From positions 1 to 20,633 of IMG/VR virus record IMGVR_UViG_3300030110_004301: a stretch of 20,633 bases of DNA; one strand, given 5' to 3'. Of the stretch, positions 2,753-17,042 are shown one piece after another. The first letter of the stretch is position 1. The number at the start of each line of letters is the position of its first letter. The stretch is from a virus. The notes under the pieces were generated by a model that did no database searches, was not told the DNA's origin, and saw only the letters and a program-made list of their open reading frames with translations. Position numbers and translations under genes: made by a program.

Positions 2753-2954
2753 TCTTGATGAACAAATTATTGCTTTGCGTGAACATCACCATCGCAGAAT
2801 TGCCTTACTAGAAAAGAAGGTTAGAACATTAATGGAATATAGAGCTACACCAGCAACAAAAAAAGAATTAAGAGATTATGTAGCTTGGTCTATAAATCAG
2901 AGAACTAAAGCAAGGAGAGGTAAAAAAAATGCAGAAACAGTCGATACCACTTGA
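2739..2954 (+). CDS. Small basic coiled-coil-like protein, 71 aa
   Basis: I do not recognise the family. Residues 5-35 (SLDEQIIALREHHHRRIALLEKKVR, then TLMEYR) have heptad-like spacing of Leu/Ile and look like one helix. The C-terminus is Arg/Lys-rich. Two consecutive ATG codons (2739, 2742) are possible; AAGGGGG (2731-2737) fits the second better by spacing. It overlaps the previous gene by 14 nt and the following membrane-protein gene by 26 nt, so all three are probably co-translated. No function can be assigned. Confidence 0.65.
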   Translation: MMATSLDEQIIALREHHHRRIALLEKKVRTLMEYRATPATKKELRDYVAWSINQRTKARRGKKNAETVDTT

Positions 2955-3093
2955 AGTTAAAACAAAAGACATCAGTCTTGATATAGGTCCAAAATGGTGG
3001 GAGATATTTCCCATAATAATTGTGTTTGGAGGTGTAAAAGCTTTTATACTAATAATTGCAATTGTGTATCTATTTAGGTGGTTTTTTAATTGA
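2929..3093 (+). CDS. Small membrane protein, 54 aa
   Basis: This open frame starts at ATG 2929-2931 behind GGAGAGG (2914-2920) and ends at TGA 3091-3093. The first 22 residues are polar (MQKQSIPLEVKTKDIS, then LDIG); residues 26-49 (IFPIIIVFGGVKAFILIIAI, then VYLF) form one long membrane helix or a tight hairpin broken at FGG, followed by RWFFN. There is no lipoprotein or cleavage signal. It overlaps genes on both sides, including a TTGA stop/start overlap with the nuclease gene, which supports it as real. The function is unknown; small phage membrane proteins of this size often act on the host envelope or in lysis, but nothing here shows that. Confidence 0.68.
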   Translation: MQKQSIPLEVKTKDISLDIGPKWWEIFPIIIVFGGVKAFILIIAIVYLFRWFFN

Positions 3094-3503
3094 AACCAGA
3101 GACTAAATTTTGGAGAGAAGTAAGAGAAAACTTGCCAGATATATTTTGGACTAGACATGAGAATTGGGCTACTCCAGGTGTACCCGACGTGTATGGAATT
3201 AAAGACGGAATATCGTTTTGGGTGGAATTGAAAGTAATAAAGAGTAATAAAATAAATTTGAGACCACACCAAATGATGTGGAACTATAAGCATAGTTTAT
3301 GCGGTGGAAGATCTTTTATTATGGCCAAGGCCCCCTCCCAGAGCTTACTGTATATCTTTGGAGGATCTTTGGCCCCCTCCATTGCGGACGAGGGAACCCG
3401 AACCACGCCTAAGTGGACGTTTGAGCTGGCCCAGCAGCCCTGGAAGAAGATTCAAAGAATCCTTCTCCATTCTGCATTGCCGAAGCCCCCAACCATCACG
3501 TAG
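3090..3503 (+). CDS. VRR-NUC family nuclease
   Basis: Proteins of this PD-(D/E)XK family are small structure-specific DNA endonucleases in phages, probably acting in recombination or repair of replicating DNA. Visible motifs are the N-terminal Glu/Arg region (KFWREV), then PGVPDVYG with the catalytic Asp (about residues 29-36), FWVELKV with the E-x-K pair (about 43-49), and the family's conserved PHQ...W segment (about 58-64). The start is TTG at 3090 behind AGGTGG (3076-3081), overlapping the upstream TGA (TTGA). After about residue 78 the base composition turns sharply GC-rich and the last 50 residues lack family features, so the native end may have been replaced by sequence from the adjacent GC-rich island. 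Confidence 0.8.
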   Translation: MKPETKFWREVRENLPDIFWTRHENWATPGVPDVYGIKDGISFWVELKVIKSNKINLRPHQMMWNYKHSLCGGRSFIMAKAPSQSLLYIFGGSLAPSIADEGTRTTPKWTFELAQQPWKKIQRILLHSALPKPPTIT

Positions 3504-3660
3504 CATGGGAGGTTTTAGGACGCTGCGCTGTCCCCGGATGGTCTTCTGGTGGACTCCATTGCATTGTCCATTGCCCGCTTTTTCAACCCTTTTGGGTCAT
3601 TAAGTCAGGAGCTGTCCACGCTGTCCCAGGCACAGCAGGTGGTTTCCATTGCATTGCACA
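3377..3660 (+). repeat. GC-rich interval with four spaced TCCATT(G)CATTG-type elements
   Basis: CTCCATTGCGGA (3377), CTCCATTCTGCATTGCC (3465), CTCCATTGCATTGTCC (3554) and TTCCATTGCATTGCAC (3644) occur at intervals of 88, 89 and 90 bp. The first two lie in the tail of the nuclease gene, the others in the non-coding 3504-3742 stretch. The sequence between them is not clearly repeated. In frame with the last two copies there is a fragment reading DSIALSIARFFNPFGSLSQE without a convincing start. I see no complete gene in 3504-3742; a gene remnant or a structured-RNA region are both possible. Confidence 0.45.
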
Positions 3661-3742
3661 GCAACCCGCACCCGTGTGTCCTTTAGGACTAAAGGAGCTG
3701 GGGGCTCAGGAGAAGACAGTGAAAAAAAAATTAATTTAGGGG

Positions 3743-3775
3743 TTGACATTCCCACTTTATCCCATTATATATAAT
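3743..3775 (+). promoter_or_regulatory. Promoter P4 with two TCCCA boxes
   Basis: TTGACA (3743-3748), a 17-bp spacer, then TATATA (3766-3771) overlapping a TATAAT (3770-3775). The spacer holds TCCCA twice, at 3750-3754 and 3760-3764, exactly 10 bp apart on the same face of the helix. It drives the genes at 3947-4413 and possibly the tRNA. Confidence 0.72.
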
Positions 3776-3779
3776 ACAT

Positions 3780-3946
3780 AGGCGAAAGTCCCTGAGCTAC
3801 GGCTCCGTGTTCAAGGTCTATGTGTGTGGTGCATAAAAAAAGTGGGTTTTCCACAATAGGGGAAAAATGCTTAAATCCATTCCTCTCCCAACGAGTTTAG
3901 CGTTTTGGGGATGAACAAAGCCACACACAAACAAAGGAGAAGAAAG
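3780..3946 (+). other. Long 5' leader with distant complementary segments
   Basis: About 165 nt of leader separate P4 from the ATG at 3947. TGTGTGTGG (3821-3829) is perfectly complementary to CCACACACA (3921-3929), which ends four bases before the AAAGGAG ribosome-binding site (3933-3939). Smaller hairpins are GAGC/GCTC (about 3794-3805) and GTGG/CCAC (3842-3845 with 3851-3854). The pairing could present or hide the ribosome-binding site; this is inference from sequence. Confidence 0.4.
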
Positions 3947-4279
3947 ATGAAAGAAAAGTCCATTGAAGATTGGGTGAGGAAAAATATTTCCCCATCAGAG
4001 AGAAAAGAAGTGCTGGAGCACGGATGTGTTAACGGGTGCGTGCCACAGCTTATATATTACAAGGACACCTGTGCCTTTTATGATTACTACCAGAACGAGA
4101 TCTGGGACATGCTGTATGATGCAGCAAACAATTATGGTTCCGAATCTATTCTACATTTCATTGCATCTCTTAACGGTGCGAAAGATGTGGGGTCAGATGA
4201 TCAGTTATCAAACCTGCTGGCCTGGTGGGCTGTTGAAGAAACATGCTACCAGTTGCAAGCAAAGGAGGACGCTGCCTGA
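3947..4279 (+). CDS. Conserved hypothetical phage protein, 110 aa (possible DUF7222-like)
   Basis: The start at ATG 3947 is chosen for the AAAGGAG at 3933-3939; in-frame upstream starts (3905 TTG, 3911 ATG) have no ribosome-binding site. The protein is acidic and aromatic-rich, with EHGCVNGCVPQLIYYKDTCA (about residues 24-43), YDYYQNEIWDMLYDAA, ILHFIASLNGAKDVG (about 68-82) and LAWWAVEETCYQL near the end. From memory this order resembles an uncharacterised phage family (DUF7222), which I cannot verify here. It has four cysteines, no membrane segment, and codons clearly more GC-rich than most neighbours. The TGA overlaps the ATG of the following membrane peptide (TGATG). Confidence 0.75.
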   Translation: MKEKSIEDWVRKNISPSERKEVLEHGCVNGCVPQLIYYKDTCAFYDYYQNEIWDMLYDAANNYGSESILHFIASLNGAKDVGSDDQLSNLLAWWAVEETCYQLQAKEDAA

Positions 4280-4413
4280 TGCATTGGCTGTGGATCCCGG
4301 CTTTGGTATATATGGTAGCGCTGTACTTGGCACCGGCTCAGGTTCTGGGTGGGACTCTTTTTGGTTTTGCCTGGTTGATGGACTCCATTGATTGGTCCGT
4401 TGTTCCATTCTAG
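4279..4413 (+). CDS. Small membrane peptide, 44 aa
   Basis: The ATG at 4279 overlaps the upstream stop (TGATG) and has the excellent ribosome-binding site AAAGGAGGA (4261-4269) nine bases away; the stop is TAG 4411-4413. The peptide begins MHWLWIPALVYMVALYLAPA and continues QVLGGTLFGFAWLMDS, so most of it is hydrophobic and could cross the membrane once or as a short hairpin, ending in the polar IDWSVVPF. It is coupled to the preceding 110-aa gene. I recognise no family. Confidence 0.7.
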   Translation: MHWLWIPALVYMVALYLAPAQVLGGTLFGFAWLMDSIDWSVVPF

Positions 4414-4490
4414 CTCCATCGCATTGTCCTTCCGACCCAGTGGCCCAGGTAAGCAGCAGGAGCTGCTGTGCTGGCCAGTCAGGTTTACTT

Positions 4491-4564
4491 CTGGTGGTGG
4501 CAGAGAGGTTATGTATCGTACTGCAACTACGACCACGCGAGTTCGAATCTCGCCCACCAGTCCA
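4491..4564 (+). tRNA. tRNA-Cys (anticodon GCA), CCA encoded
   Basis: The 7-bp acceptor stem CTGGTGG (4491-4497) / CCACCAG (4554-4560) is perfect, with discriminator T 4561 and an encoded CCA at 4562-4564. The D arm has a 3-bp stem and GGTTATGTA, as in bacterial tRNA-Cys. The anticodon stem is TCGTA (4516-4520) / TACGA (4528-4532), the loop CTGCAAC, the anticodon GCA (4523-4525). The variable loop is CCAC, and the T arm is GCGAG-TTCGAAT-CTCGC (4537-4553). T at position 73 plus GCA are known tRNA-Cys identity elements. No broken pairs are seen, so it is probably functional. Confidence 0.92.
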
Positions 4565-4640
4565 TTACATTGCATCGCGACGAATCCGCCTTTGTGCGAG
4601 TATAAGGGTAAGGAAGTCCCGCCACGCGGCGTGTCTAGGT
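4561..4640 (+). repeat. About 75-bp repeat unit, copy 1 (adjacent to tRNA-Cys)
   Basis: TCCATTACATTG begins exactly at the discriminator and CCA of the tRNA, and CGGCGTGTC follows 66 bp later (4627-4635). The same two blocks occur at similar spacing in the copy at 5203. The unit ends with the small hairpin CACG-CGG-CGTG. No gene is present from 4565 to 4764. Confidence 0.5.
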
Positions 4641-4697
4641 TTGTAAGTTGTGTGGTATGTCGAGTTTGGATTATCTAAAAAAAAATAAAAAAAGGGG

Positions 4698-4727
4698 TTG
4701 ACATATAAAAAAATGGGATTATATATA
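4698..4727 (+). promoter_or_regulatory. Promoter P5 with AAATGGGA in spacer
   Basis: GGGG-TTGACA (4698-4703), a 16-bp spacer and TATATA (4720-4725; an overlapping TATATA at 4722 gives 18 bp). AAATGGGA occupies 4711-4718. A transcription start near 4733 gives a short leader to the ATG at 4765. Confidence 0.68.
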
Positions 4728-4764
4728 TAGTAACTAACAGAAAGAACAGAAAGGAAATAACTAA

Positions 4765-5181
4765 ATGTCAAAACCTGTTAATATAATAGATGTTTTACAA
4801 AAAGCATATAATGGTAAAAAGATATCTGATAGAGATACTAAAGCTATTATAGACGCTTATGGTAGAGCGTTAACTATGAAAAAGATTTTGGAGGATTTTA
4901 TCAAAGTCAACCGAAACTTGGTCATAGAGATCGGCGAACAAGCCGAAACTAATCTTGTAGTTGGCAAAGACTACACTCTTAACATTACTGAAAAGCAGTC
5001 GGTTAAAATCGATAATGCTCTTGTTAGAGAGAAACTAGGGGAGTTGGAATATCATAACTGCAAAGTGCCAACATCATACAAGCAAATTCAATCTATGCCT
5101 TTATCTGATAAGGTCATTAAATCTTCGCGTAATGACATGTCAGTTGGAAGCATTGTTGATTTCAAATTAGCAACCGCTTAA
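4765..5181 (+). CDS. Hypothetical protein, 138 aa
   Basis: I do not recognise the family with confidence. The N-terminal 55 residues look helical (NIIDVLQKAYNGKKISDRDT, then KAIIDAYGRALTMKKILEDF); the middle has a strand-like stretch (VGKDYTLNITEKQSVKI). It then has ALVREKLGELEYHNCKVPTS (about residues 85-104), a pattern I associate with uncharacterised phage proteins carried near replication or early genes. There is no catalytic signature, signal peptide or membrane helix. AGAAAGGAA (4749-4757) supports the start. It is the only gene between P5 and the tandem repeat at 5203. Confidence 0.75.
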   Translation: MSKPVNIIDVLQKAYNGKKISDRDTKAIIDAYGRALTMKKILEDFIKVNRNLVIEIGEQAETNLVVGKDYTLNITEKQSVKIDNALVREKLGELEYHNCKVPTSYKQIQSMPLSDKVIKSSRNDMSVGSIVDFKLATA

Positions 5182-5202
5182 TTTATTCTTAGAGGCGACG
5201 AT

Positions 5203-5281
5203 CTCCATTACATTGTCGCCTCGACCAAGCCCATGAGATATAGTAATAGTAAAAAGTTAGCACCAGACGGCGTGTCGCTGA
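5203..5281 (+). repeat. About 75-bp repeat unit, copy 2
   Basis: CTCCATTACATTGT (5203-5216), then TCGACCAAG, ATATAGTA, a run of A and CGGCGTGTC (5268-5276). It is followed directly by copy 3 with an offset of 83 bp. AGGCGAC (5191-5197) and GTCGCCT (5215-5221) pair perfectly, putting the CCATTACATT core in the loop of a hairpin. Confidence 0.6.
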
Positions 5282-5285
5282 TAAT

Positions 5286-5357
5286 CTCCATTACATTGTG
5301 GTTTCGACCAAGTCGCAGGGTATATAGTATAGGAAAAAAGTGCCGACGCGCGTGGAG
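5286..5357 (+). repeat. About 75-bp repeat unit, copy 3
   Basis: CTCCATTACATTGT (5286-5299) is identical to copy 2, followed by TTTCGACCAAG, TATATAGTATAGG, an A-run and a degenerate CGCGCGTGG block. Copies 2 and 3 together fill most of the gap between the genes at 4765 and 5376. Confidence 0.6.
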
Positions 5358-5375
5358 TTGGTTGGGAGAAGTCGC

Positions 5376-5456
5376 ATGACGATAATTGATATAATATTAC
5401 AAGTCCTTGCGTGGGTAATTTTATTCACAAGTTTATTTTATCTTTTTTTTAAATAG
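5376..5456 (+). CDS. Very small membrane peptide, 26 aa
   Basis: ATG 5376-5378 follows GGGAGAA (5364-5370); the stop is TAG 5454-5456. The peptide, from MTIIDIILQVLAWVILF to a final YLFFK, is one uninterrupted hydrophobic helix with a Lys end, so it would insert once in the membrane. The ribosome-binding site and clean single-helix profile support translation; the very small size leaves doubt. Promoter P6 begins three bases after the stop. Confidence 0.5.
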   Translation: MTIIDIILQVLAWVILFTSLFYLFFK

Positions 5457-5459
5457 GTG

Positions 5460-5488
5460 TTGACTATGAGATAAAATGGGAGTATTCT
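5460..5488 (+). promoter_or_regulatory. Promoter P6 with TAAAATGGGAG in spacer
   Basis: TTGACT (5460-5465), a 17-bp spacer and TATTCT (5483-5488). It shares the exact 16-mer AGATAAAATGGGAGTA (5469-5484) with P3. It drives the single gene at 5520-5801, which ends at a strong terminator. Confidence 0.68.
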
Positions 5489-5519
5489 TTTTTTATCTTA
5501 TAAGAAAGGATAAATTAAA

Positions 5520-5801
5520 ATGCCAGATGATAATAACGATCTAGAAAGAAGATTAACAGTTCTTTCAGAAACTATGGGTTTGAGAAGAAGAGAAAATACT
5601 CAACCTACTAATCCTACTGCTCAACCATTAACAGACGAGCAGATTACTATTCACTTAAATTGGAAGGCTCTTTATAAATGGTTAGAGAGTGAAGTTGAGG
5701 AATTGATCCTCAACCCTAACGCTTCGCCCGAAGTTAAAAGGTGGGCAGAACAATTGATCTCAAATGGTCAAAGGAAGATGAGAGAATTCCAAAATAGATA
5801 A
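5520..5801 (+). CDS. Hypothetical protein, 93 aa
   Basis: I do not recognise the family. The N-terminal 30 residues are charged (DLERRLTVLSETMGLRRRE), followed by a Pro/Thr/Asn-rich linker (TQPTNPTAQP). A C-terminal helical part contains WKALYKWLESEVEELILNPN and EVKRWAEQLISNGQRKMREF. There are no cysteine, membrane or catalytic motifs. AAGAAAGGA (5502-5510) precedes the ATG. It is read alone between P6 and the terminator at 5828-5863, and lies just before the terminase large-subunit block; a role in packaging or regulation is possible but not shown. Confidence 0.75.
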   Translation: MPDDNNDLERRLTVLSETMGLRRRENTQPTNPTAQPLTDEQITIHLNWKALYKWLESEVEELILNPNASPEVKRWAEQLISNGQRKMREFQNR

Positions 5802-5827
5802 CAAGTTTCCTCTTTAGGAGGACTGGC

Positions 5828-5863
5828 AACCCCCAGTATTTATGAGATGCTGGGGGTTTTTTT
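5828..5863 (+). terminator. Strong rho-independent terminator
   Basis: AACCCCCAG (5828-5836) pairs with CTGGGGGTT (5850-5858), a 9-bp GC-rich stem with a 13-nt loop and a run of seven T (5857-5863). It closes the gene at 5520 and separates the early-type small genes from the terminase/portal block. Confidence 0.9.
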
Positions 5864-6018
5864 ATGCCTGACAGCATACCTGACAGCACCACCTGCTGTG
5901 CCATCTGAGTCTTACAATTCAACATTAGGTACTTACAAACTATCTCAACCACAAGATGTAGTGGGTTTTACCCCCACCACCACCATTTTGGGGTGCGCGC
6001 GTGCGCGCTGCTCTAGTG
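5864..6018 (+). other. Structured non-coding spacer before the terminase large subunit
   Basis: It holds a 10-bp direct repeat CCTGACAGCA (5867-5876, 5879-5888), the hairpin ACAGCA-CCACC-TGCTGT (5883-5899), a GTGGG/CCCAC hairpin (5961-5965 with 5973-5977) and a GC-rich inverted repeat GCGCGC-GT-GCGCGC (5995-6008) in an alternating purine/pyrimidine run (5993-6008). An open frame from 5847 spans it but begins inside the terminator and has no ribosome-binding site, so I see no gene here. Confidence 0.5.
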
Positions 6019-6047
6019 TTGAGTTTTACACAAACATAACTTAAGAT
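6019..6047 (+). promoter_or_regulatory. Candidate promoter for the terminase/portal block
   Basis: TTGAGT (6019-6024), a 17-bp spacer and TAAGAT (6042-6047, the same -10 sequence as P3). It lacks the TCCCA motif of P1-P6. The predicted start (about 6054) would leave only about five bases before the ATG at 6059. Confidence 0.4.
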
Positions 6048-6058
6048 ATAACTTTTTT

Positions 6059-7501
6059 ATGAAAAATTCTGAATTACCGATCGACTTACTAAAGTATCAA
6101 TTAAGGGAAATGCAAATAAAGATTGCAGAGGAGTCCCGTTCCTCCTATCTTACTTTTGTAAGAAAAGTTTGGCCTGACTTTATTGCAGGTAAACATCACA
6201 AAATTTATGCTAAAAAATTAGAAGAAGTAGCAACGGGTAAAACAAAACGATTAATTATAAATATGCCACCTCGACATACAAAGTCAGAGTTTGCATCTAA
6301 TTTATTTCCTGCGTGGATGATGGGCAGGAATCCTAAACTAAAAATAATTCAAACAACTCACACAGCTGAGCTTTCATATAACTTTGGTCGTAAAGTCAGA
6401 AACTTATTTGATCAACAAGAATTTAAAGATGTATTTCCTAATGTAAATTTATCACAGGATTCTAAAGCAGCAGGTCGTTTCACCACGAACAAAGGTGGAG
6501 AATATTTTGCTGCGGGTGTTGGTGGTGCAATCACGGGCCGTGGTGCAGACTTACTGATCATCGATGACCCACACTCGGAACAAGATGCACTTAGTCAAAC
6601 TGCTTTAGACAATGCATATGAGTGGTATACCTCTGGTCCTCGACAGCGTTTACAACCAGGTGGTGCAATTGTAATTGTTATGACTCGTTGGTCTACAAAA
6701 GATCTTACAGGAAAACTTTTGAATGCACAGTCAAACGATAACTCTGATCAGTGGGACGTGGTCGAGTTTCCGGCTATCTTGAATGACAAACCTATGTGGC
6801 CTGAGTTCTGGAAACTTTCAGAATTAGAATCAGTCAAGGCAGCCTTATCAGAACAAAAGTGGCAAGCTCAATGGCAACAACAACCCACATCAGAAGAAGG
6901 ATCTATTATCAAACGAGAGTGGTGGAAGATATGGACTTTAGAAAAAATTCCTGACTTAACACATGTCATACAAAGTTATGATACAGCGTTTAGTAAAAAA
7001 GAAACTGCAGACTTTAGTGCGATAACAACGTGGGGCGTATTTAAGCCCGTGGAACACGGACCATGGAACATAATTTTATTAGACATGAAGAAAGGTCGGT
7101 GGGACTTTCCTGATTTAAAAAAGATCGCGTTAGATGAATATACGTATTGGGAACCCGAAACAATCTTGATCGAAGCCAAAGCATCTGGTATGCCTTTAAC
7201 ACAGGAGCTGCGGCAGCTAGGCATTCCCGTTGTTACATATACGCCTAGTAAGGGTAATGATAAACACGTACGTGTAAACTCCGTGGCTCCCTTATTTGAA
7301 GCGGGTCAAGTCTGGTGCACCGAGGACCGTTGGGCAGATGAAGTGGTAGAAGAATGTGCGGCCTTTCCTTTCGGTGAATACGACGATTTAGTAGACTCAA
7401 CGACACAAGCTTTACTTAGGTTTAGACAAGGCAACTTTATTCAGTTAGAATCAGACTACAAAGACGAGCCAACGTACATAGAACCAAGGAGTTATTATTA
7501 G
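6059..7501 (+). CDS. terL: Terminase large subunit
   Basis: This is the ATP-driven packaging motor and headful or cos nuclease that docks on the portal. ATPase features: Walker A MPPRHTKS (residues 69-76), Walker B LLIIDD (165-170) and the coupling-type VMTRW (207-211). The nuclease domain shows SYDTAF with D308, D318, LIEAKASG with E372, and YDDLVDS with D442/D443 and D446. The length, 480 aa, is full size. The Walker A Gly is replaced by Thr, a variant seen in this family (PPRHxKS). No ribosome-binding site precedes ATG 6059; a later ATG at 6110 has GGGAA upstream but would remove part of the conserved N-terminal helix. Its TAG overlaps the GTG of the next gene. Confidence 0.96.
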   Translation: MKNSELPIDLLKYQLREMQIKIAEESRSSYLTFVRKVWPDFIAGKHHKIYAKKLEEVATGKTKRLIINMPPRHTKSEFASNLFPAWMMGRNPKLKIIQTTHTAELSYNFGRKVRNLFDQQEFKDVFPNVNLSQDSKAAGRFTTNKGGEYFAAGVGGAITGRGADLLIIDDPHSEQDALSQTALDNAYEWYTSGPRQRLQPGGAIVIVMTRWSTKDLTGKLLNAQSNDNSDQWDVVEFPAILNDKPMWPEFWKLSELESVKAALSEQKWQAQWQQQPTSEEGSIIKREWWKIWTLEKIPDLTHVIQSYDTAFSKKETADFSAITTWGVFKPVEHGPWNIILLDMKKGRWDFPDLKKIALDEYTYWEPETILIEAKASGMPLTQELRQLGIPVVTYTPSKGNDKHVRVNSVAPLFEAGQVWCTEDRWADEVVEECAAFPFGEYDDLVDSTTQALLRFRQGNFIQLESDYKDEPTYIEPRSYY

Positions 7502-8931
7502 TGCCTGCTTTAAAATCATTAAGTAAATTAGGTGTTTCATTATTTGAAATAGATGTTGATGAGCTAGTAAAAAATATAGATCCTGAGCTTTTAAAAGATG
7601 TAAATTTTCAAAATACTATTCAAAGACTTTTAAAACTTAAGCCTATTTTTGATAAATTAGACAATCAAAACCTAACAAGGCAGAAAGCAGATATTGTTAA
7701 TCAAGAATTAAGTAAGATATTAGAAAATGAAAAAAGTATAAATACACCTGGTTTTGGTTCTAATTTAAAAAAATTTTTTAAAAACTCAGGACTGTTTTCA
7801 CAAAGAATAATCAAACAGATATTTACACCCAATCAAGTTAATAAAAAAGGAATTTCAGGAAATAATTTAAGTGAGAAAGCAAAAGAAAATTTATTAGCAA
7901 AGAATGAAATATTTATGGAATCGTATAGGAGTCCCGAGGAAAGAAGTATAAGGTATGAACAGTCAAACTTAGGTATTCCTAAAACCATAGAAAAATCAAA
8001 TTATACAAAATATTTAACAATGAAAGAAAGATATAAGAGAATAAAACAAATTATGGAAGATGAAGGAGTGTCTTTAAACACAGCCACGAGTCAAATGTTA
8101 GAAGAGCTTGGATTAAACCCTATTGGAAATAGTGCGTACTATAGAGATTATAGTAAGACTAGATTTATAAGAGGGAAACCAGTAACCACTGGAAGCACGT
8201 GGAATGTTCATAAAGACAGAATGAAAAAAGAAGATCCTGAACTTTTTAAATTTTTTGATAAAAAGGTAGATGATTATACTAAGGCATATACAAAAAGGTT
8301 AGAAGATAGACCTGAGCTAAAAAAAATAGATGCACTAATTTATACAGACACAAATCCTTCTCTATCAAAAAAAGCAAAAGCACTTTTACAAAGAGGCTTC
8401 TTTAAAGATTTGTTGCAAATGGAGCACCGCATGAACAAACCATCTTTAAGAGAATTTTATGAATTTGCTGGACAAGATCCTTATAAACAAAGCAGACTAA
8501 ATATTTACAAAAAATCAAGTTACTTAACAACTAGAGAAAGAAACCTTAATAAAGTTAAATTAGGTAATAAAATAGAAAAAGTTTTGTTAAATAAAGAAAA
8601 CTTACAAGGTAAATTTGATAGTGGAGATATAGAGTTAAGTCAGTTTGTGACCGATATGGCACAACAGAATGCCAGACTTAATATGTTAAACAGTGAACTA
8701 GCTGATCAAGGATTAAACTTTGTATACTTTAATCCTAAGACAAACGAAGAAATGTTTTTTGGCAAAGAATATTCTAATCTAGGACAGTTAAGGACATCTG
8801 AAAAGAAAGGAATTGTGCCTCAACCTGCTGATACAGTAGGGCCGCCTAAAAAATTAAAAACAGCTGATGAGGTTGGAAAACTTAAACAAGGGGGTTTGCT
8901 TAACATAGAAGAAATGTTAAACTCGGATTAA
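7501..8931 (+). CDS. Unknown protein between terminase and next large gene, 476 aa
   Basis: I do not recognise the family. It begins with GTG in a TAGTG overlap with terL. The protein is rich in Lys, Asn, Leu and Glu and reads as mostly helical. It contains basic clusters such as FGSNLKKFFKNSGLFSQRII (about 85-104), a region TMKERYKRIKQIMEDEGVSL, and RGKPVTTGSTWNVHKDRM (about 224-241), which together recall DNA-handling proteins without a diagnostic site. No membrane segment or signal peptide is seen. It ends GKLKQGGLLNIEEMLNSD, a Gly-Gly-Leu tail similar in form to those of several other proteins here. A position between terminase and portal is often used for virion or packaging accessory proteins; that role is inference. 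Confidence 0.85.
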   Translation: MPALKSLSKLGVSLFEIDVDELVKNIDPELLKDVNFQNTIQRLLKLKPIFDKLDNQNLTRQKADIVNQELSKILENEKSINTPGFGSNLKKFFKNSGLFSQRIIKQIFTPNQVNKKGISGNNLSEKAKENLLAKNEIFMESYRSPEERSIRYEQSNLGIPKTIEKSNYTKYLTMKERYKRIKQIMEDEGVSLNTATSQMLEELGLNPIGNSAYYRDYSKTRFIRGKPVTTGSTWNVHKDRMKKEDPELFKFFDKKVDDYTKAYTKRLEDRPELKKIDALIYTDTNPSLSKKAKALLQRGFFKDLLQMEHRMNKPSLREFYEFAGQDPYKQSRLNIYKKSSYLTTRERNLNKVKLGNKIEKVLLNKENLQGKFDSGDIELSQFVTDMAQQNARLNMLNSELADQGLNFVYFNPKTNEEMFFGKEYSNLGQLRTSEKKGIVPQPADTVGPPKKLKTADEVGKLKQGGLLNIEEMLNSD

Positions 8932-8932
8932 T

Positions 8933-11740
8933 ATGGCAGAAGAAGACTTAAATTTTAGTAGAGAAGACCTTTTTGATATTGATCTTGAAGAGAGAGAGTT
9001 ACGTCCAACGGAGAAAAGAAAAGAGCGTAGAGGCAAAGAAATAACTCCAGAGCAAAAGGCAGATGCTAAAGAAATGATGAAAGATATGGCTAAGTTTCCT
9101 GTTAATGTTGCTGCAGAAACAGGTAATTTTATTTTGGACGTAGCACAAATACCTTCGTTCGCGTACAACACTTTTCAAGATATAGTCCTTGACGACCCTG
9201 AAGACCAAATTCCTATGTTAAAAGTTCCAACATTAGATTACACATCAAAACAGGGAGAAATGTTAGACAAGCTAGATTATGGTGTTTCTTTTGGAACTGG
9301 TATAATAGGTATGGCAAAAGGATTAAAGATTTTAGCTGCTAAGTCTCCAAAACTTTATGCAAGTTTAAAAGAAGCTTACCCCTATAATGTAGGTCAGTTT
9401 ATGGACACTTTAAATAGTAAAGGACTTAAACAAGCGTTAAAAGATGTCTTTCCAAGCAAAAAAACTTTTAAAAAGCTTATTAGGAATGTTGCGGGACTAG
9501 TTCCCTCTGCTTTTGTATTAGATAAAGTAGTGGATAGACCGAAAGAAATGGCCTCGGGCGGTGGTCCAGGTGAGATTGATTATGATCCTTCAGAGTACGG
9601 TGGACCATTTAGTAATCCTATTACACAAGAAGATCCTTACATTAATATTGAACAATATTTAAATCAACCAGGTGTTGAAGGATTAAAAGATTTAGAAATT
9701 TTTGATTTAGATTTACCTTTAGCACAAAATCAAGCGGGTGATTTTTTAGATAAAATAGAAGGAACTAAAGTATCGTTGCTTGGTAAAGTTCCTGCATGGG
9801 CTATAGCAAATATAGATAAAGCAAAAACCTTAACACAAACATTCACAAAAGGTGAGAGCAATATTCTCAACTCAATAAAAAATAAACTCACACCAAAGGA
9901 CGAGGCCATATTAGATGATAGTATCGAAGAAGTTTTAGACGACACGATTCCTGATACAACAGCGGTGTCCAAGAAAAAAGAAAAAGTAATTATAGATTCT
10001 CCTGAAGCAACTGAAGATGTTTTTTATTCTGGCTTAGAAGCAAGATTAATGGACCCCAACACACCTGATAGTTTTGATTCAGTAAAAGCGTTTTATGATT
10101 TTTTAAATAGTAAAGGTGTTTCAAAAGCAGAAGTAGGCGACTACGCTTTAGAGGGTTATTTAAATCAGTCTTTACAAGGTGGAGTTAAAATTAATAAAAA
10201 TGATTTACTAGAAATAGTTAGAGAAGCTCCTATTCGTAAAATTAAAACAATCACTTACGGTAATGAAGCTTGGGGTGGAACAAAGTCACCAAGGTATGCA
10301 GGTCAATATACAGAGGAGGGTTATCTGCCTTCTTCTTACAGAGAGAATGTTTTATATTTAGAGCCAGAAAATATTCCGTTAGATCCTGGTAAAATTAGAG
10401 AAGGTGATCCTGCTCACTCTTTTGAAGAAGATTACGTTTTAGGTTGGACAAGGTCAACAGATCGTCTTGCGTTTGATCCTAGTGCTAGTGCGACAGGTAT
10501 TGGTAAGCTTGGCAAAAAAGAAGTTGATACTCTTACAAAAAATATACAAACAGTAGGAGAGCAAACAGATCAATTAAAAATGTCTGCTATAAATAACTTA
10601 GCTGATACAAGCGATGAGGTAAAACAATTCATACAAACTGAACTAGATACACCTTTAGAGGCTTTACCTAGCAAAGATCTTACAACCATTTACAATAGAC
10701 TAGGACCAGAGATTGAGCAAATGGATGCTGCTCTTTACAATCAAATAAAAGCTTTTGATGAAAAATTATTAAACGATACTGAAAAATTAAATATTCATCA
10801 ACAGGCCGTAGATGGTAATAAATTTACAGTTACTTTTGCAGATGAAATACAATCCGATATTTTACAACAAGCAAAAAAGTTTGAAGAAAAATTAACACAA
10901 CAATTAGGCGATTTAATTGATGCAAATGCTGCAACTAGAAGAAATACCATTACGGGACGATACGAATATCAACAACTAAATCCTGAAGTAGTAGAGTATT
11001 TTCTTGCAAACAAAACAGTTTTTAGACCGATGTTTCAATCGGCTCAAGAGATGCAAACATTTTTAGATAAGTTCGCTAAAAATAAAGAAGTGTTTGAAGA
11101 ATTAGCTAACGCAGGAGTAAGACCCTCAGAAGAATTAAAAAAGAAAGCTTTTAAAGCTGCTGAAGAAGAATCTAAAATGCTAACAGAATTAAAAACATCG
11201 TTAAGTACAAGAGCTATGGAATATTTATATCCAAATGTTCCTTTTAAAAATAGAAACGAATGGGGATCAGCTTTGATCAAAAATGATTTAGCTATAGCAG
11301 CTAAAAGATTATTTGAAGACGAAGTTGATGGAGCAGCTACTTGGTACGCTGTTTCTCCAAGTAAATATATAACTAAAAGATACGGCCAACAAGGTGGCAC
11401 CGCTACAACTAAAGCAGAAAGAGAGGCTGCTAAAGAACGTGGCACACAGTTGAAAGGAATAGGAATGGAAGAATTTTATGGTGGCCCTGATTCTGTAGAC
11501 CCTAAGGGTAAACACTATACATCAGTTATTGAAAAGATATTAAAGAAAGCAGCTAATGATAATAACTCAGAGTTTAAAATTATTAAAGTCAAAGTAAAAG
11601 ATGGAGAAGGTAAAAGTTCTTATGAAGATGCTTTTGCCATCAAACTAACTCCTGAAATGTTGTTACCTCATAAAACTCATAGGAAATCTGGAGGATTTAT
11701 GTATACTCCAGACAATATTGATATATTTGAGGCAGCATAG
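8933..11740 (+). CDS. Large protein with phage polyvalent-protein-like C-terminal domain, 935 aa
   Basis: The first 60 residues are highly charged; about 54-85, 116-138 and 181-200 hold weakly hydrophobic, Gly/Ala-rich segments that could contact membranes. From about 360 the protein follows a recurring pattern I associate with large phage/plasmid polyvalent proteins. VFYSGLEA (363-370) is followed by a helical part with KGVSKAEVGDYALEGYL, then YTEEGYLPSSYRENVLYLEP (459-478) and HSFEEDYVLGWTRSTDRLAF (495-514). Next come TFADEIQSDILQQ (634-646), VPFKNRNEWGSALIKN (769-784), ATWYAVSP (802-809), GMEEFYGG (844-851) and AIKLTPEML (902-910). The stretch between about 520 and 625 looks like a coiled-coil insertion. 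The biochemical role of this domain is not known to me. The end, RKSGGFMYTPDNIDIFEAA, carries the Gly-Gly tail motif. Position beside the portal suggests a virion or ejected protein. Confidence 0.82.
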   Translation: MAEEDLNFSREDLFDIDLEERELRPTEKRKERRGKEITPEQKADAKEMMKDMAKFPVNVAAETGNFILDVAQIPSFAYNTFQDIVLDDPEDQIPMLKVPTLDYTSKQGEMLDKLDYGVSFGTGIIGMAKGLKILAAKSPKLYASLKEAYPYNVGQFMDTLNSKGLKQALKDVFPSKKTFKKLIRNVAGLVPSAFVLDKVVDRPKEMASGGGPGEIDYDPSEYGGPFSNPITQEDPYINIEQYLNQPGVEGLKDLEIFDLDLPLAQNQAGDFLDKIEGTKVSLLGKVPAWAIANIDKAKTLTQTFTKGESNILNSIKNKLTPKDEAILDDSIEEVLDDTIPDTTAVSKKKEKVIIDSPEATEDVFYSGLEARLMDPNTPDSFDSVKAFYDFLNSKGVSKAEVGDYALEGYLNQSLQGGVKINKNDLLEIVREAPIRKIKTITYGNEAWGGTKSPRYAGQYTEEGYLPSSYRENVLYLEPENIPLDPGKIREGDPAHSFEEDYVLGWTRSTDRLAFDPSASATGIGKLGKKEVDTLTKNIQTVGEQTDQLKMSAINNLADTSDEVKQFIQTELDTPLEALPSKDLTTIYNRLGPEIEQMDAALYNQIKAFDEKLLNDTEKLNIHQQAVDGNKFTVTFADEIQSDILQQAKKFEEKLTQQLGDLIDANAATRRNTITGRYEYQQLNPEVVEYFLANKTVFRPMFQSAQEMQTFLDKFAKNKEVFEELANAGVRPSEELKKKAFKAAEEESKMLTELKTSLSTRAMEYLYPNVPFKNRNEWGSALIKNDLAIAAKRLFEDEVDGAATWYAVSPSKYITKRYGQQGGTATTKAEREAAKERGTQLKGIGMEEFYGGPDSVDPKGKHYTSVIEKILKKAANDNNSEFKIIKVKVKDGEGKSSYEDAFAIKLTPEMLLPHKTHRKSGGFMYTPDNIDIFEAA

Positions 11741-14118
11741 TGGCAGTAGATAAGAAAATACAACCAGAGGCACCAGAAGGTTTTGTACCAGCTCAAGAAG
11801 AAGCTATTGGGCAAATGGTTGAAATGCAAGTTCAACAGGGTTTACAACCTGAAGTAGAAATGTTAGATGACGGTTCAGCCATAGTGGGTGAACAAGAAAA
11901 CATAATACCTACAAATTTTGACATGAACTTAGCAGAAGTTCTAGATGATGATGAACTAGGAAACATATCTAGTGAGCTTCGTCAGTGTTATGAAGATGAC
12001 AAATCTTCTAGACAAGAGTGGGAAGAAACTTATAAAAAAGGCTTAGACCTATTAGGATTTAAGTATCAAGAAAGAACAATGCCTTTTGCAGGAGCAAGTT
12101 CCGTGACTCATCCTATGTTATCCGAGGCTATCACACAATTTCAAGCACAAGCATATAAAGAATTATTACCAGCAGGAGGTCCTGTTAATACACAAATTAT
12201 AGGAGCTTTAAATTCTGCAAAAGAATCACAAGCACAACGTGTTAAAGATTATATGAACTATCAGATTATGCATGAGATGGAAGAGTATGATCCTGATTTA
12301 GACTCTTTGCTTTTTTACCTTCCTTTATCTGGTTCAGCATTTAAAAAAGTTTATTACGATGCAGGATTAGGTAGAGCTGTTTCTAAGTTTATTCCCTCTG
12401 ATGATTTGTATGTTCCTTATTTAGCAACTGATTTATCTAGTTGTGAAAGAGTTACGCATACAGTAAGAAAATCAAAAAACGAAGTTCGTAAATTACAAGT
12501 TGCTGGTTTTTACAGAGATGTAGATTTACAAGTCTACGATGACGAAACAAAGTTACAAGAAAAAGAAAATGATATATCTGGAGTTAAAAAAACTTCATAC
12601 ACAAAAGACGACTTTCAACTTTTGGAAATGCACGTTGATCTTAATATCCCTGGTGTTGATGCAGATGATGGAATCAAAGTTCCTTATATCGTTACAATAG
12701 ATGAAGGATCTTCAAAAGTATTATCTATTTATAGAAATTACAAAGAACAAGATCCTACAACAAAAAAGATTTCTTATTTTGTTCATTACAAGTTTTTACC
12801 TGGTTTTAGTTTTTATGGCTTTGGTCTCATTCACATGCTGGGCGGTTTATCAAGAACTGCAACAGCAGCTCTTAGACAATTATTAGATGCTGGAACATTA
12901 TCTAATTTACCTGCAGGATTTAAAGCTCGAGGGTTAAGAATAAAAGATGATGATAATCCATTACAACCAGGTGAGTTTAGAGATGTAGATGCACCGGGTG
13001 GTAGTTTGAGAGAAGGATTAGTTCCTCTCCCTTACAAAGAACCTAGTGGAACTTTATTTCAACTCTTAGGTTTTTGTGTAGAAGCAGGTACAAGATTTGC
13101 TTCTGTTGCAGATCAAAAAATTGGAGATAGCGTTGCAGCAAATGCACCTGTCGGAACCACTATGGCTCTTATGGAACGTGGCGCAAGAGTCATGTCAGCT
13201 ATTCACAAAAGATTACACTACGCACAAAAACAAGAATTTAAATTATTAGCAACAATATTTGCTGAATCTTTACCACCTTTCTATCCTTATGATGTTGGAG
13301 AAGATGCAACAGAAAGTTTAAAGGCAGAAGATTTTAGTGGTGACATTGATATTATTCCTGTTTCAGATCCTAATATTTTTTCCATGTCTCAACGAGTTAC
13401 GTTGGCACAAACACAATTACAATTAGCTCAAGCAGATCCTGCTTCTCACAACATGTATGAAGCGTATAGAAGAATGTATCAAGCATTAGGTGTCAAAGAT
13501 ATTGAAGCTATTCTTCCAGCACCTTCTGGTCCACAACCAATGGACCCTGCTGTTGAAAATGCATCCTCTCTTAAGAACCAACCTTTGACAGCTTTTAGAA
13601 ATCAAAATCACATGGCTCATGTTGAAGCTCACAGAGCTTTTATGACATCAAATCTAGTTAAAAATAATCCGCCAACAATGGCTATTTTACAATCACACAT
13701 CATGGAACATGTAGGATTACAGGCAAGAGAAGAGGTAGAAGAAGAAAATGCACAAGCAATTGAACAAACAGCTATGCAATATAACGGTCAGTTACCTCCA
13801 GAAGTACAAATTCAGATACAAGAAGGCATGGAACAACAAATTTCTGAAAAAGTTGCCGAAATGACCTTAGAAATGGTTACAGAAGAGGCAGAATATTTAG
13901 ATGAAGGAGCAGAAGATCCTTTAGTTAACTTGAAACAACAAGAAATTAACATAAAAGCAGGTGATTTAGAGAGAAAAACCATGGCTGATCAAACAAAAAT
14001 GGGTTTAGATCAAGAAAAACTAGATCAAAACGCAAAAATAGCTCAAGATAGAATACAATCACAAGAAGACATAGCTCAATTAAGAGCAAATGTTAATTTA
14101 ACAAAGACAAAAAAATAA
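11740..14118 (+). CDS. Portal protein
   Basis: The portal forms the dodecameric ring at the capsid vertex through which DNA is packaged and ejected. GTG at 11740 overlaps the upstream TAG (TAGTG). Features: an acidic N-terminus with an ELRQCYEDDKSSRQEWEETY segment, PFAGASSVTHP (115-125), ITQFQAQAYKELLPAGGPV (131-149), a helical wing (KESQAQRVKDYMNYQIMHEM), and a core with LPLSGSAFKKVYYD. It then has GFGLIHMLGGLSRTATAALR, GTLSNLPAGFKARGLRIKDD and PVGTTMALMERGARVMSAIH. Past about residue 700 the tail is Glu/Gln-rich and coiled-coil, ending in a basic KTKK, as expected for the barrel. At 792 aa it is in the range of long P22-type portals. Identity rests on these motifs plus its place downstream of terL. 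Confidence 0.92.
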   Translation: MAVDKKIQPEAPEGFVPAQEEAIGQMVEMQVQQGLQPEVEMLDDGSAIVGEQENIIPTNFDMNLAEVLDDDELGNISSELRQCYEDDKSSRQEWEETYKKGLDLLGFKYQERTMPFAGASSVTHPMLSEAITQFQAQAYKELLPAGGPVNTQIIGALNSAKESQAQRVKDYMNYQIMHEMEEYDPDLDSLLFYLPLSGSAFKKVYYDAGLGRAVSKFIPSDDLYVPYLATDLSSCERVTHTVRKSKNEVRKLQVAGFYRDVDLQVYDDETKLQEKENDISGVKKTSYTKDDFQLLEMHVDLNIPGVDADDGIKVPYIVTIDEGSSKVLSIYRNYKEQDPTTKKISYFVHYKFLPGFSFYGFGLIHMLGGLSRTATAALRQLLDAGTLSNLPAGFKARGLRIKDDDNPLQPGEFRDVDAPGGSLREGLVPLPYKEPSGTLFQLLGFCVEAGTRFASVADQKIGDSVAANAPVGTTMALMERGARVMSAIHKRLHYAQKQEFKLLATIFAESLPPFYPYDVGEDATESLKAEDFSGDIDIIPVSDPNIFSMSQRVTLAQTQLQLAQADPASHNMYEAYRRMYQALGVKDIEAILPAPSGPQPMDPAVENASSLKNQPLTAFRNQNHMAHVEAHRAFMTSNLVKNNPPTMAILQSHIMEHVGLQAREEVEEENAQAIEQTAMQYNGQLPPEVQIQIQEGMEQQISEKVAEMTLEMVTEEAEYLDEGAEDPLVNLKQQEINIKAGDLERKTMADQTKMGLDQEKLDQNAKIAQDRIQSQEDIAQLRANVNLTKTKK

Positions 14119-15138: not shown

Positions 15139-15405
15139 ATGAAAGATTTAAGTGGTGATGGTAAGATAACTAAAAAAGATGTTCTTATCGGTAGAGGTGT
15201 TTTAGAAAAGCCAATGAAAAAAAATAAGGGCGGTCAAGTAGCTAGTTCTGCTGAAACATCAGTTATTAAAGGAGCAAAAGCAAAAGGTTCAAGAGAAGGT
15301 TCAGTCATAAAAGGACCTAAGGCAAGGTCTTCAAGAGAAGGTTCTATTATTAAAAGAAAAAGTGGTGGACTTGCTAAAAGAGGTTATGGAGCTGCGATAA
15401 GATAA
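15139..15405 (+). CDS. Small basic protein with EF-hand-like loop, 14-residue repeats and GGLA tail, 88 aa
   Basis: Residues 3-14 (DLSGDGKITKKD) match a calcium-binding EF-hand loop (acidic or polar at loop positions 1, 3, 5, Gly at 6 and acidic at 12). Then two near-identical repeats follow, SVIKGAKAKGSREG (41-54) and SVIKGPKARSSREG (55-68), plus the start of a third (SIIKRKSGG). The end, SGGLAKRGYGAAIR, recurs almost unchanged in the protein ending at 15970. The protein is strongly basic, so it may bind nucleic acid or a virion surface. AGGAG (15128-15132) precedes the ATG, and the TAA overlaps the next ATG (TAATG). Calcium binding and function are not shown. Confidence 0.78.
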   Translation: MKDLSGDGKITKKDVLIGRGVLEKPMKKNKGGQVASSAETSVIKGAKAKGSREGSVIKGPKARSSREGSIIKRKSGGLAKRGYGAAIR

Positions 15406-15677
15406 TGGCAAAATTATGTGCAAAAGGTAAAGCCGCAGCTAAGCGGAAATTCAAAGTCTATCCGAGCGCATATGCAAATATGTATGCAGGAGCTGTTTGT
15501 AGTGGTAAAGTTACTCCTGGTGGAAAGAAAAATAAAAAAGCTACTGGTGGTATGATTGGTGATGGTAATAAAATATCTCAATCTAGAAAAAAAGTATCAC
15601 ACATGAACAATGGCGGAGTTGCTAAAGGTTGTGGTGCTGTCATGGAAAATAAAAGAAAAACTACTGCATATGCATAA
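15405..15677 (+). CDS. Small basic phage protein with YPSAYANMYA motif, 90 aa (DUF5872-like)
   Basis: Residues 6-33 contain KGKAAAKRKFKVYPSAYANM followed by YAGAVC, a motif I recall from an uncharacterised family in phages and large viruses (DUF5872); this is from memory and unchecked. A Gly-Gly segment (ATGGMIGDGNKI) and the end NNGGVAKGCGAVMENKRKTT follow. Highly basic, with three Cys and no membrane part. It is coupled to both neighbours by TAATG overlaps. The family's function is not known to me. Confidence 0.75.
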   Translation: MAKLCAKGKAAAKRKFKVYPSAYANMYAGAVCSGKVTPGGKKNKKATGGMIGDGNKISQSRKKVSHMNNGGVAKGCGAVMENKRKTTAYA

Positions 15678-15970
15678 TGGCTAAAAAAGGTTTAAGATCT
15701 TGGGTTAAGGAAAATTGGGTAGACATAGCCAATAAAAAATCTGATGGTTCTTATCCTAAATGTGGACGTAGTGGTGGAGAGAAAAGAAAGAAGTACCCTA
15801 AATGTGTGCCAATAGCAAAAGCGAGAGCCATGTCAACGGGTCAAAAAAGATCTGCAGTTAGTAGAAAACAAAAAGCAGGTAATCCTGGTGGTAAACCTAC
15901 AAATGTTAAAACGTTTAAAGCAAGATCAGGTGGGTTAGCTATGAGAGGTTACGGCGCTGCAATACGTTAA
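15677..15970 (+). CDS. Small basic phage protein with Cys pair and GGLA tail, 97 aa (DUF6321-like)
   Basis: The protein reads KGLRSWVKENWVDIANKKSD (4-23), YPKCGRSGGEKRKKYPKCVP (26-45), KARAMSTGQKRSAVSRKQKA (48-67) and GNPGGKPTNVKTF (68-80), an order I recall from an uncharacterised phage/bacterial family (DUF6321); the name is from memory. The two PKC motifs could hold a metal or form a disulfide. It ends SGGLAMRGYGAAIR (84-97), matching the protein ending at 15405 in all but one residue. The start is a TAATG overlap with the upstream gene. Role unknown; position within the lysis/structural region fits a virion-associated or host-modifying protein. Confidence 0.78.
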   Translation: MAKKGLRSWVKENWVDIANKKSDGSYPKCGRSGGEKRKKYPKCVPIAKARAMSTGQKRSAVSRKQKAGNPGGKPTNVKTFKARSGGLAMRGYGAAIR

Positions 15971-16423: not shown

Positions 16424-16636
16424 ATGCAATTAGAAAATTATTTTACATATTATAAAAAACAATTAATAACTAGACAAGAGCAAGTAAAACAAGCTATATT
16501 GTCAGGAGTAAAAAATTGGGATGAATATCGTTATTTATGCGGTAAACTTCATGCCCTAGAACAAGAACAACAGGAACTCACGGACCTGCTAAATAAAACG
16601 GAGCTAGAAGATGATTACAACAGCCAAAAAAAGTAA
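16424..16636 (+). CDS. Small coiled-coil protein, 70 aa
   Basis: I do not recognise the family. It is almost entirely helical and Gln/Glu/Lys-rich (YYKKQLITRQEQVKQAIL, LHALEQEQQELTDLLNKTE), with the aromatic WDEYRYLCG between two helices. It starts one base after the lysozyme stop without a ribosome-binding site, so it probably relies on coupling, and overlaps the GroES-like gene by 26 nt. No membrane segment, so it is not an evident spanin. Confidence 0.75.
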   Translation: MQLENYFTYYKKQLITRQEQVKQAILSGVKNWDEYRYLCGKLHALEQEQQELTDLLNKTELEDDYNSQKK

Positions 16637-17042
16637 GCTTATACTACCAAAAAAAATATGGGATAGTAAATCAGCTGAAAAAACAAAGGACAAGAAAGAA
16701 TTAGAGAAAGTTCCACAGCCAACAGGATTTAGAATAGTTTTATTTCCTCTCAAGCTTGAAGAAAAAACTTCTTCAGGAATTATCTTTACAGAAGACACAA
16801 TCGAACAATCACAAATATCCACTAATGTATGTAAGGTTTTAGAAGTAGGGCCTGATGCTTATGCAGATAAAACAAGATTTCCAAATGGACCATGGTGTAA
16901 AAAAGGCGATTGGGTTTTAATAACAAGGTACGCAGGATCTCGCATAAAAATTGAAGGCGGTGAACTACGTATTATTAATGATGATGAAATAATAGCAACG
17001 GTAGATGACCCTAGAGACATTTTACCCGCTAATATATTTTAG
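16611..17042 (+). CDS. GroES-like co-chaperonin
   Basis: GroES-type proteins form the lid of the GroEL chamber; phage versions (T4 gp31 is the known case) let host GroEL fold the capsid protein. The core runs from about residue 37: TGFRIVLFPLKLEEKTSSGI (38-57) followed by IF, which carries the mobile-loop hydrophobic triplet (I57-I58-F59, equal to IVL in E. coli GroES). It continues CKVLEVGPDAY, KKGDWVLITRYAGSRIKIEG (97-116) and LRIINDDEIIATVDDP (119-134). A Lys-rich N-terminal extension of about 36 residues and a larger loop (DKTRFPNGPW) distinguish it from bacterial GroES (about 97 aa). GGAG (16600-16603) supports the start. Its place just before scaffold and capsid genes fits capsid folding. 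Confidence 0.9.
   Translation: MITTAKKSKLILPKKIWDSKSAEKTKDKKELEKVPQPTGFRIVLFPLKLEEKTSSGIIFTEDTIEQSQISTNVCKVLEVGPDAYADKTRFPNGPWCKKGDWVLITRYAGSRIKIEGGELRIINDDEIIATVDDPRDILPANIF

Follow-up and report, generated by a model that had tools for sequence, protein, structure and literature searches.

A protein with a predicted GNAT-like domain encoded between terminase and portal in an IMG/VR virus

What is the product of the long open reading frame that separates the terminase and portal genes of this virus, and at what stage of infection might it act? The window considered here, a 20.6-kb IMG/VR virus contig analysed over its full 20,633 nucleotides, contains this frame (8933-11740) in its entirety. 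A preliminary description had pointed out, in the C-terminal part of the product, a motif order associated with giant polyvalent proteins, had noted that ejection or internal virion proteins may be coded at such a place, and had put forward profile-profile search and structure prediction as checks.

The EIQ gene, its neighbours and its relatives

The frame lies between terL and portal as described, both neighbours being identified by their PHROG matches, and a 476-aa frame also intervenes. The order is terL, the 476-aa frame (7501-8931), the EIQ gene and portal, with the following features:

6059..7501, + strand: terL, terminase large subunit (phrog_38 match)
7501..8931, + strand: first slot gene, 476 aa, with a swappable body and a conserved C-terminal GG..IEEML tag (8890-8928)
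8933..11740, + strand: EIQ gene (name used here), ATG start, 935 aa plus stop; variable N-terminal part and C-terminal EIQSD domain
8933..9994, + strand: EIQ N-terminal part, residues 1-354; fast-evolving, no homologue detected
9554..9568, + strand: GG motif SGGGP, residues 208-212, kept in the variable N-terminal part of most relatives
10016..11737, + strand: EIQSD domain, residues 362-935, with a predicted GNAT-like fold
11681..11737, + strand: C-terminal tag RKSGGFMYTPDNIDIFEAA, residues 917-935, near-invariant in relatives
11740..14118, + strand: portal protein (phrog_1216 match)

Past the portal, the genes include lysozyme-like, GroES-like, scaffold-like and capsid genes, labelled by sequence reading and by homologues in annotated isolates. 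The GroES-like co-chaperonin gene (16611-17042) falls in the portal/scaffold interval, and the same arrangement is found in HTVC023P-type pelagiphages.

The TAG stop of the EIQ gene and the GTG start of the portal gene overlap by one base, and the EIQ gene directly precedes portal in every relative locus that shows the junction. Purifying selection indicates a real gene (dN/dS of about 0.21 with L038, 0.17 with L039 and 0.33 with L041), its dN being some 4-fold that of the portal and its N-terminal part generally the faster half. One IMG/VR scan returned 34 relatives and a later scan at least 280, with one more in an alphaproteobacterial single-cell genome (L101). A tblastn search of phage isolates with EIQ yielded nothing, even at E 10, and Pfam and PHROG scans of the EIQ protein and 28 relatives gave chance-level matches only. 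Portal and capsid place HTVC023P-type pelagiphages, described previously (PMC9599517), closest among phage isolates, and the host is therefore likely to be SAR11-like.

Among EIQ relatives, between about 310 and 630 aa precede FYS. The N-terminal part of EIQ has no Pfam or PHROG match and no recognisable nuclease, protease or second domain, and an HMM of this part found no relative among slot and ejection proteins. The charged head attributed to the protein is real, if mild (28 of the first 50 residues are charged), but the membrane-prone segments attributed to it are a weak point: averaged over 19 residues, the Kyte-Doolittle score peaks at 1.32, and it stays below 1.6 in all 63 relatives examined. 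Instead of clear transmembrane helices, these are amphipathic or mildly hydrophobic segments. In this fast-changing protein, the EIQSD domain is bracketed by the two conserved GG motifs (residues 208-212, in the linker, and 917-935), the C-terminal one having the pattern RK.GG.(V/M)YTPE.IDIFEAA and resembling the tag that ends the adjacent 7501-8931 product.

The EIQSD domain family and its predicted fold

All seven motifs named for the C-terminal part are present in the order given: VFYS (residues 363-366), TRSTDR (506-511), ADEIQSD (636-642), PFK..W (770-777), next WYAVSP, then GMEEFY (844-849) and LTPEM (905-909). The starting point for a homology test was an 'EEIQSDWHQ' domain that we took to belong to large phage proteins, and a DNA pattern scan for this type of domain located at least 80 loci, with the domain confirmed in their translations. 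When a profile of 28 window-type domains (A2) was aligned by hhalign to one built from 29 EIQSDWHQ-type domains (A3), E was 1.4e-8 locally and 1.2e-12 globally, and 1.5e-11 and 8e-7 for the two halves taken separately; the best of 40 column-permuted controls reached 0.031 and the reversed control 0.42. In this alignment FYS, YRE, H, R..DR, EIQSD, PFK..W and GM..FY match up in order. Judged against both controls, the motif order exceeds chance and homology with the EIQSD family is confirmed, so that the standing of the EIQ C-terminal domain as a divergent member of this abundant family is well supported by profile comparison.

The EIQSD domain is uncatalogued, in the sense that it has no Pfam model. 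A Pfam scan of whole EIQSD proteins (L103, L119, L122, L160) gave no match, the EIQSDWHQ-type domains hit no convincing Pfam family, and the family profile had no match among PDB sequences. Among PHROG families, the EIQSDWHQ-type domains matched only the long phrog_7348 ('endolysin', 2564 aa), of which a stretch at about 1800-2077 is matched by EIQSD domains (27 of 29 members). The EIQ protein itself has no match to this family, whose endolysin label probably reflects a different portion of the sequence.

Throughout the family (72 of 72 sequences), R507, E638, Q640, S641, D642, Q645, W777 and Y849, in window numbering, are invariant. The conserved segments are:

10415..10465, + strand: H495 and R507/D510/R511, conserved family-wide, before and on beta3
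10838..10867, + strand: ADEIQSD...Q, residues 636-645, with invariant E638, Q640, S641, D642 and Q645, at the beta4 end
11240..11263, + strand: PFK..W, residues 770-777, with invariant W777, at the entry to alpha3
11462..11479, + strand: GMEEFY, residues 844-849, with invariant Y849, in the helix equivalent to GNAT alpha4

Modelled from the window-type alignment alone, EIQ reached a modest pLDDT of 67.8; Foldseek with this low-confidence model was uninformative against PDB and found four uncultured-phage proteins in BFVD (probability 1.00). A family-core model, built from the combined alignment of 72 sequences with the compact EIQSD protein L121 as query, reached pLDDT 82.4 and pTM 0.79. The PDB entries that Foldseek listed for it are almost only GNAT-fold proteins, at weak E-values (best 0.026), and VIA-align placed the ICL2 C-domain first (Z 10.9, 133 residues, 2.7 A), the best 50 entries being all GNAT-fold, down to Z 8.3. 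For EIQ's own model, which derives from a separate alignment, the GNAT AtaT ranked first (Z 7.6, 148 residues), and GCN5 and HAT1 were also listed. Strand and helix order in both models fits beta1-beta2-beta3-beta4-alpha3-beta5-alpha4-beta6-beta7, the predicted EIQ elements being beta1 TITYG, beta2 RENVLYL, beta3 VLGWTRSTDR, beta4 VTFADEIQSD, alpha3 EWGSALIK, beta5 WYAV, alpha4 GMEEFY and beta6-beta7 running to LTPEM. Structure prediction, the other check put forward at the outset, hence yields a GNAT-like fold both in the L121 homologue and, more weakly, in EIQ. The assignment is a predicted one and rests on the model of a homologue (L121), that of EIQ reaching only pLDDT 68.

What the EIQSD domain has in common with GNATs (ICL2 C-domain, AtaT/TacT toxins, GCN5, NatD) is the predicted order of strands and helices, a structural match at Z 8-11, and a Tyr in the alpha4 equivalent, the helix in which many GNATs keep a catalytic Tyr. 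Unlike GNATs, to which it has no sequence match, it contains long inserts, lacks the acyl-CoA loop motif and displays an unusual invariant EIQSD at the end of beta4, which is where E638 and Q640 sit in the predicted structure. The acyl-CoA pyrophosphate loop [RQ]xxGx[GA], sought after beta4, is absent from the EIQ protein and occurs within 40 aa in 6 of 72 family members, some of these being plainly chance matches. The ICL2 C-domain has itself been described as GNAT-like without sequence similarity, and has been linked to acetyl-CoA activation (PMC6788997).

Two other readings of the domain were set aside. E-I-Q could have marked a PD-(D/E)XK nuclease, but no nuclease appeared beside the GNATs that the structure search returned, and the order of strands agrees with GNAT. 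The possibility of an ADP-ribosyltransferase, raised since ART-PolyVal often shares a polypeptide with EIQSD, was rejected, ART-PolyVal being a separate domain in the same polypeptides with no match to EIQ.

Polyvalent proteins and the terL-portal slot

The motif order named at the outset proved to be that of a domain of giant polyvalent-type proteins, as judged from profile-profile homology and domain fusions. Eight of the nine EIQSD-bearing proteins above 1,850 aa that were scanned also bear domains that belong to the polyvalent-protein set (Iyer et al. 2017, PMC5512222). The EIQSD neighbours are LPD39 (L140) and GGDEF (L137), and other fusions involve LPD22, LPD38 with ART-PolyVal and a helicase domain, ART-PolyVal with PBECR5, LPD38 with RadC, ART-PolyVal alone and LPD38 alone. 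The EIQSD domain is also present in a Pseudomonas plasmid protein that bears the annotation 'LPD23 domain-containing'. The participation of the EIQSD family in polyvalent proteins is well supported at the level of domain architecture. EIQ resembles these proteins (PMC5512222) through EIQSD, which is fused to their domains in giant phage proteins, and through its terminase-portal context, beside virion genes. It differs from them in being mid-size, with a single recognisable domain at its C-terminus and that one lacking a Pfam model, so that EIQ itself is a candidate polyvalent protein only. Two GNAT families, described as RimI-like, have been reported among polyvalent proteins (PMC5512222); EIQSD proteins gave no match to Pfam GNAT models. 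The plasmid protein (L233, Pseudomonas plasmid p382, 1-13278) is some 5000 aa long, and two EIQSD copies occur in single proteins of Dolichospermum phage Dfl-JY45 (L235, 6910-14073) and of L137.

Proteins of the EIQSDWHQ type also adjoin terL and portal in other phages with homologous portals (L110, L125, L130-L133, L138, L139, L151, L155, L163, L169). The T7-like pelagiphage HTVC028P has the EIQSD domain (E 1e-66) in gp34, a 954-aa protein encoded between 'putative internal protein A'/gp35 and a 'putative internal virion protein', shortly ahead of the tail fibre. This position of gp34 in an internal-virion-protein block lends support to the suggestion that the surroundings of EIQ code for ejection or internal virion proteins. 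EIQ is akin to the T7-type internal virion/ejection block (HTVC028P gp33-gp36) in the domain it shares with gp34, and unlike it in occupying the terL-portal slot and in having an N-terminal part that matches none of these proteins.

The contents of the terL-portal slot vary. HTVC027P has two unrelated proteins there, HTVC023P one of 201 aa, DSL-LC04 a PcfJ-like protein (Pfam PcfJ) and 023Pt_psg01 two others, and the slot is empty in CRP-902, Pag-Yong1 and an Alcaligenes phage. Being absent or replaced in relatives, the EIQ slot protein is unlikely to be core assembly machinery. Homology to EIQ could not be demonstrated for HTVC027P gp41/gp42 or for the slot proteins of 023Pt_psg01 and DSL-LC04, psg01 URG13085 giving a marginal helical match only. 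The occupants in L223 (HTVC027P, 4753-8884), L225 (DSL-LC04, 6439-8916), L227 (023Pt_psg01, 2844-6946) and L229 (3227-5899) comprise proteins without Pfam match, PcfJ-like and GP88-like proteins, and several of them bear DGGRVGY or GGLA-type motifs.

The first slot gene is swappable in its body, which does not align with that of L036, a genome that is 98.6% identical to the window from 8504 onward, and a recombination breakpoint relative to L036 lies near that position. Across 38 distinct relatives the bodies form four BLAST clusters, the three multi-member ones having no profile-level homology among them, and yet every one of these proteins (relatives in L002-L099) ends in the tag GG[FLI][AVL][SND][IFLV][EQ][ED][VM][LI]. 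In the five loci scanned, the C-terminal tag pattern is restricted to the EIQ and 7501-8931 genes, and a loading or docking tag shared by both proteins is an attractive but speculative idea.

Virion cargo and its alternatives

The adjacency of EIQSDWHQ-type proteins to terL and portal, the position of HTVC028P gp34 and the variable slot all point to virion cargo. We tentatively regard EIQ as a virion-carried, ejected, probably acyltransferase-like effector of the polyvalent/ejection-protein kind, a reading to which we grant slightly less than an even chance and in which packaging, ejection and catalysis are all inferred. EIQ would be made late, together with terminase and portal, packaged in the head, at the portal vertex or close to it, and ejected into the host along with the DNA. 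There, the EIQSD domain, as a divergent GNAT fold, would most likely acylate a host target early in infection, be it a protein, a nucleic acid or a small molecule, with acyl-CoA use and target both presumed.

The GNAT fold might instead serve without catalysis, as a module for ligand binding or docking with a part in building or gating the portal-vertex/ejection machinery. The fixed place beside portal, the missing canonical CoA loop and the identity of the best structural match, a regulatory C-domain of ICL2 that senses acetyl-CoA (PMC6788997), argue for such a role. On the other hand, the gene is absent from related phages, and the invariant E/Q/S/D cluster, R507 and the alpha4 Tyr, retained in very distant proteins, look catalytic, which leaves this alternative credible but unlikely. 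The operon-like one-base overlap with portal and the portal adjacency in all relatives showing the junction could also denote a factor in head morphogenesis (a scaffold-like or core protein), dispensable or confined to a lineage, that assembles with portal and is not delivered; this we deem improbable, given that relatives with homologous portal and capsid have unrelated proteins or nothing in the slot and that EIQSD turns up again on plasmids and in giant polyvalent proteins. A GNAT-like fold would also suit a late enzyme that works in the infected cell, for instance by modifying products of host or phage, and stays out of the virion, its gene simply being part of the late operon, but the place of HTVC028P gp34 within an ejection-protein block and the polyvalent-protein fusions make this quite improbable.

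The EIQSD family is of interest because it spans giant polyvalent proteins as well as viral contigs in their hundreds, with probable SAR11 phages among them, and previously had neither Pfam model nor assigned biochemistry. The family, its predicted GNAT-like fold, its invariant residues and a cultured test phage (HTVC028P) are new here, and a testable fold and residues, together with HTVC028P and likely action at entry, carry an unnamed gene to experiment. The terL-portal slot could likewise show how phages load different effectors into virions. A bolder proposal, which we consider a long shot, treats the slot as a cargo bay whose bodies would be loaded through the shared GG-type C-terminal tag, with EIQSD as a new clade of GNAT-fold enzymes acting at entry. 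Its contents would then be at least three to four families in the first slot gene, EIQSD-GNAT in the second and PcfJ-like or other proteins in relatives. Elsewhere in the window, three consecutive genes (15139-15405, 15405-15677 and 15677-15970) encode small basic proteins with GG motifs, two of the three sharing the near-identical end SGGLA(K/M)RGYGAAIR.
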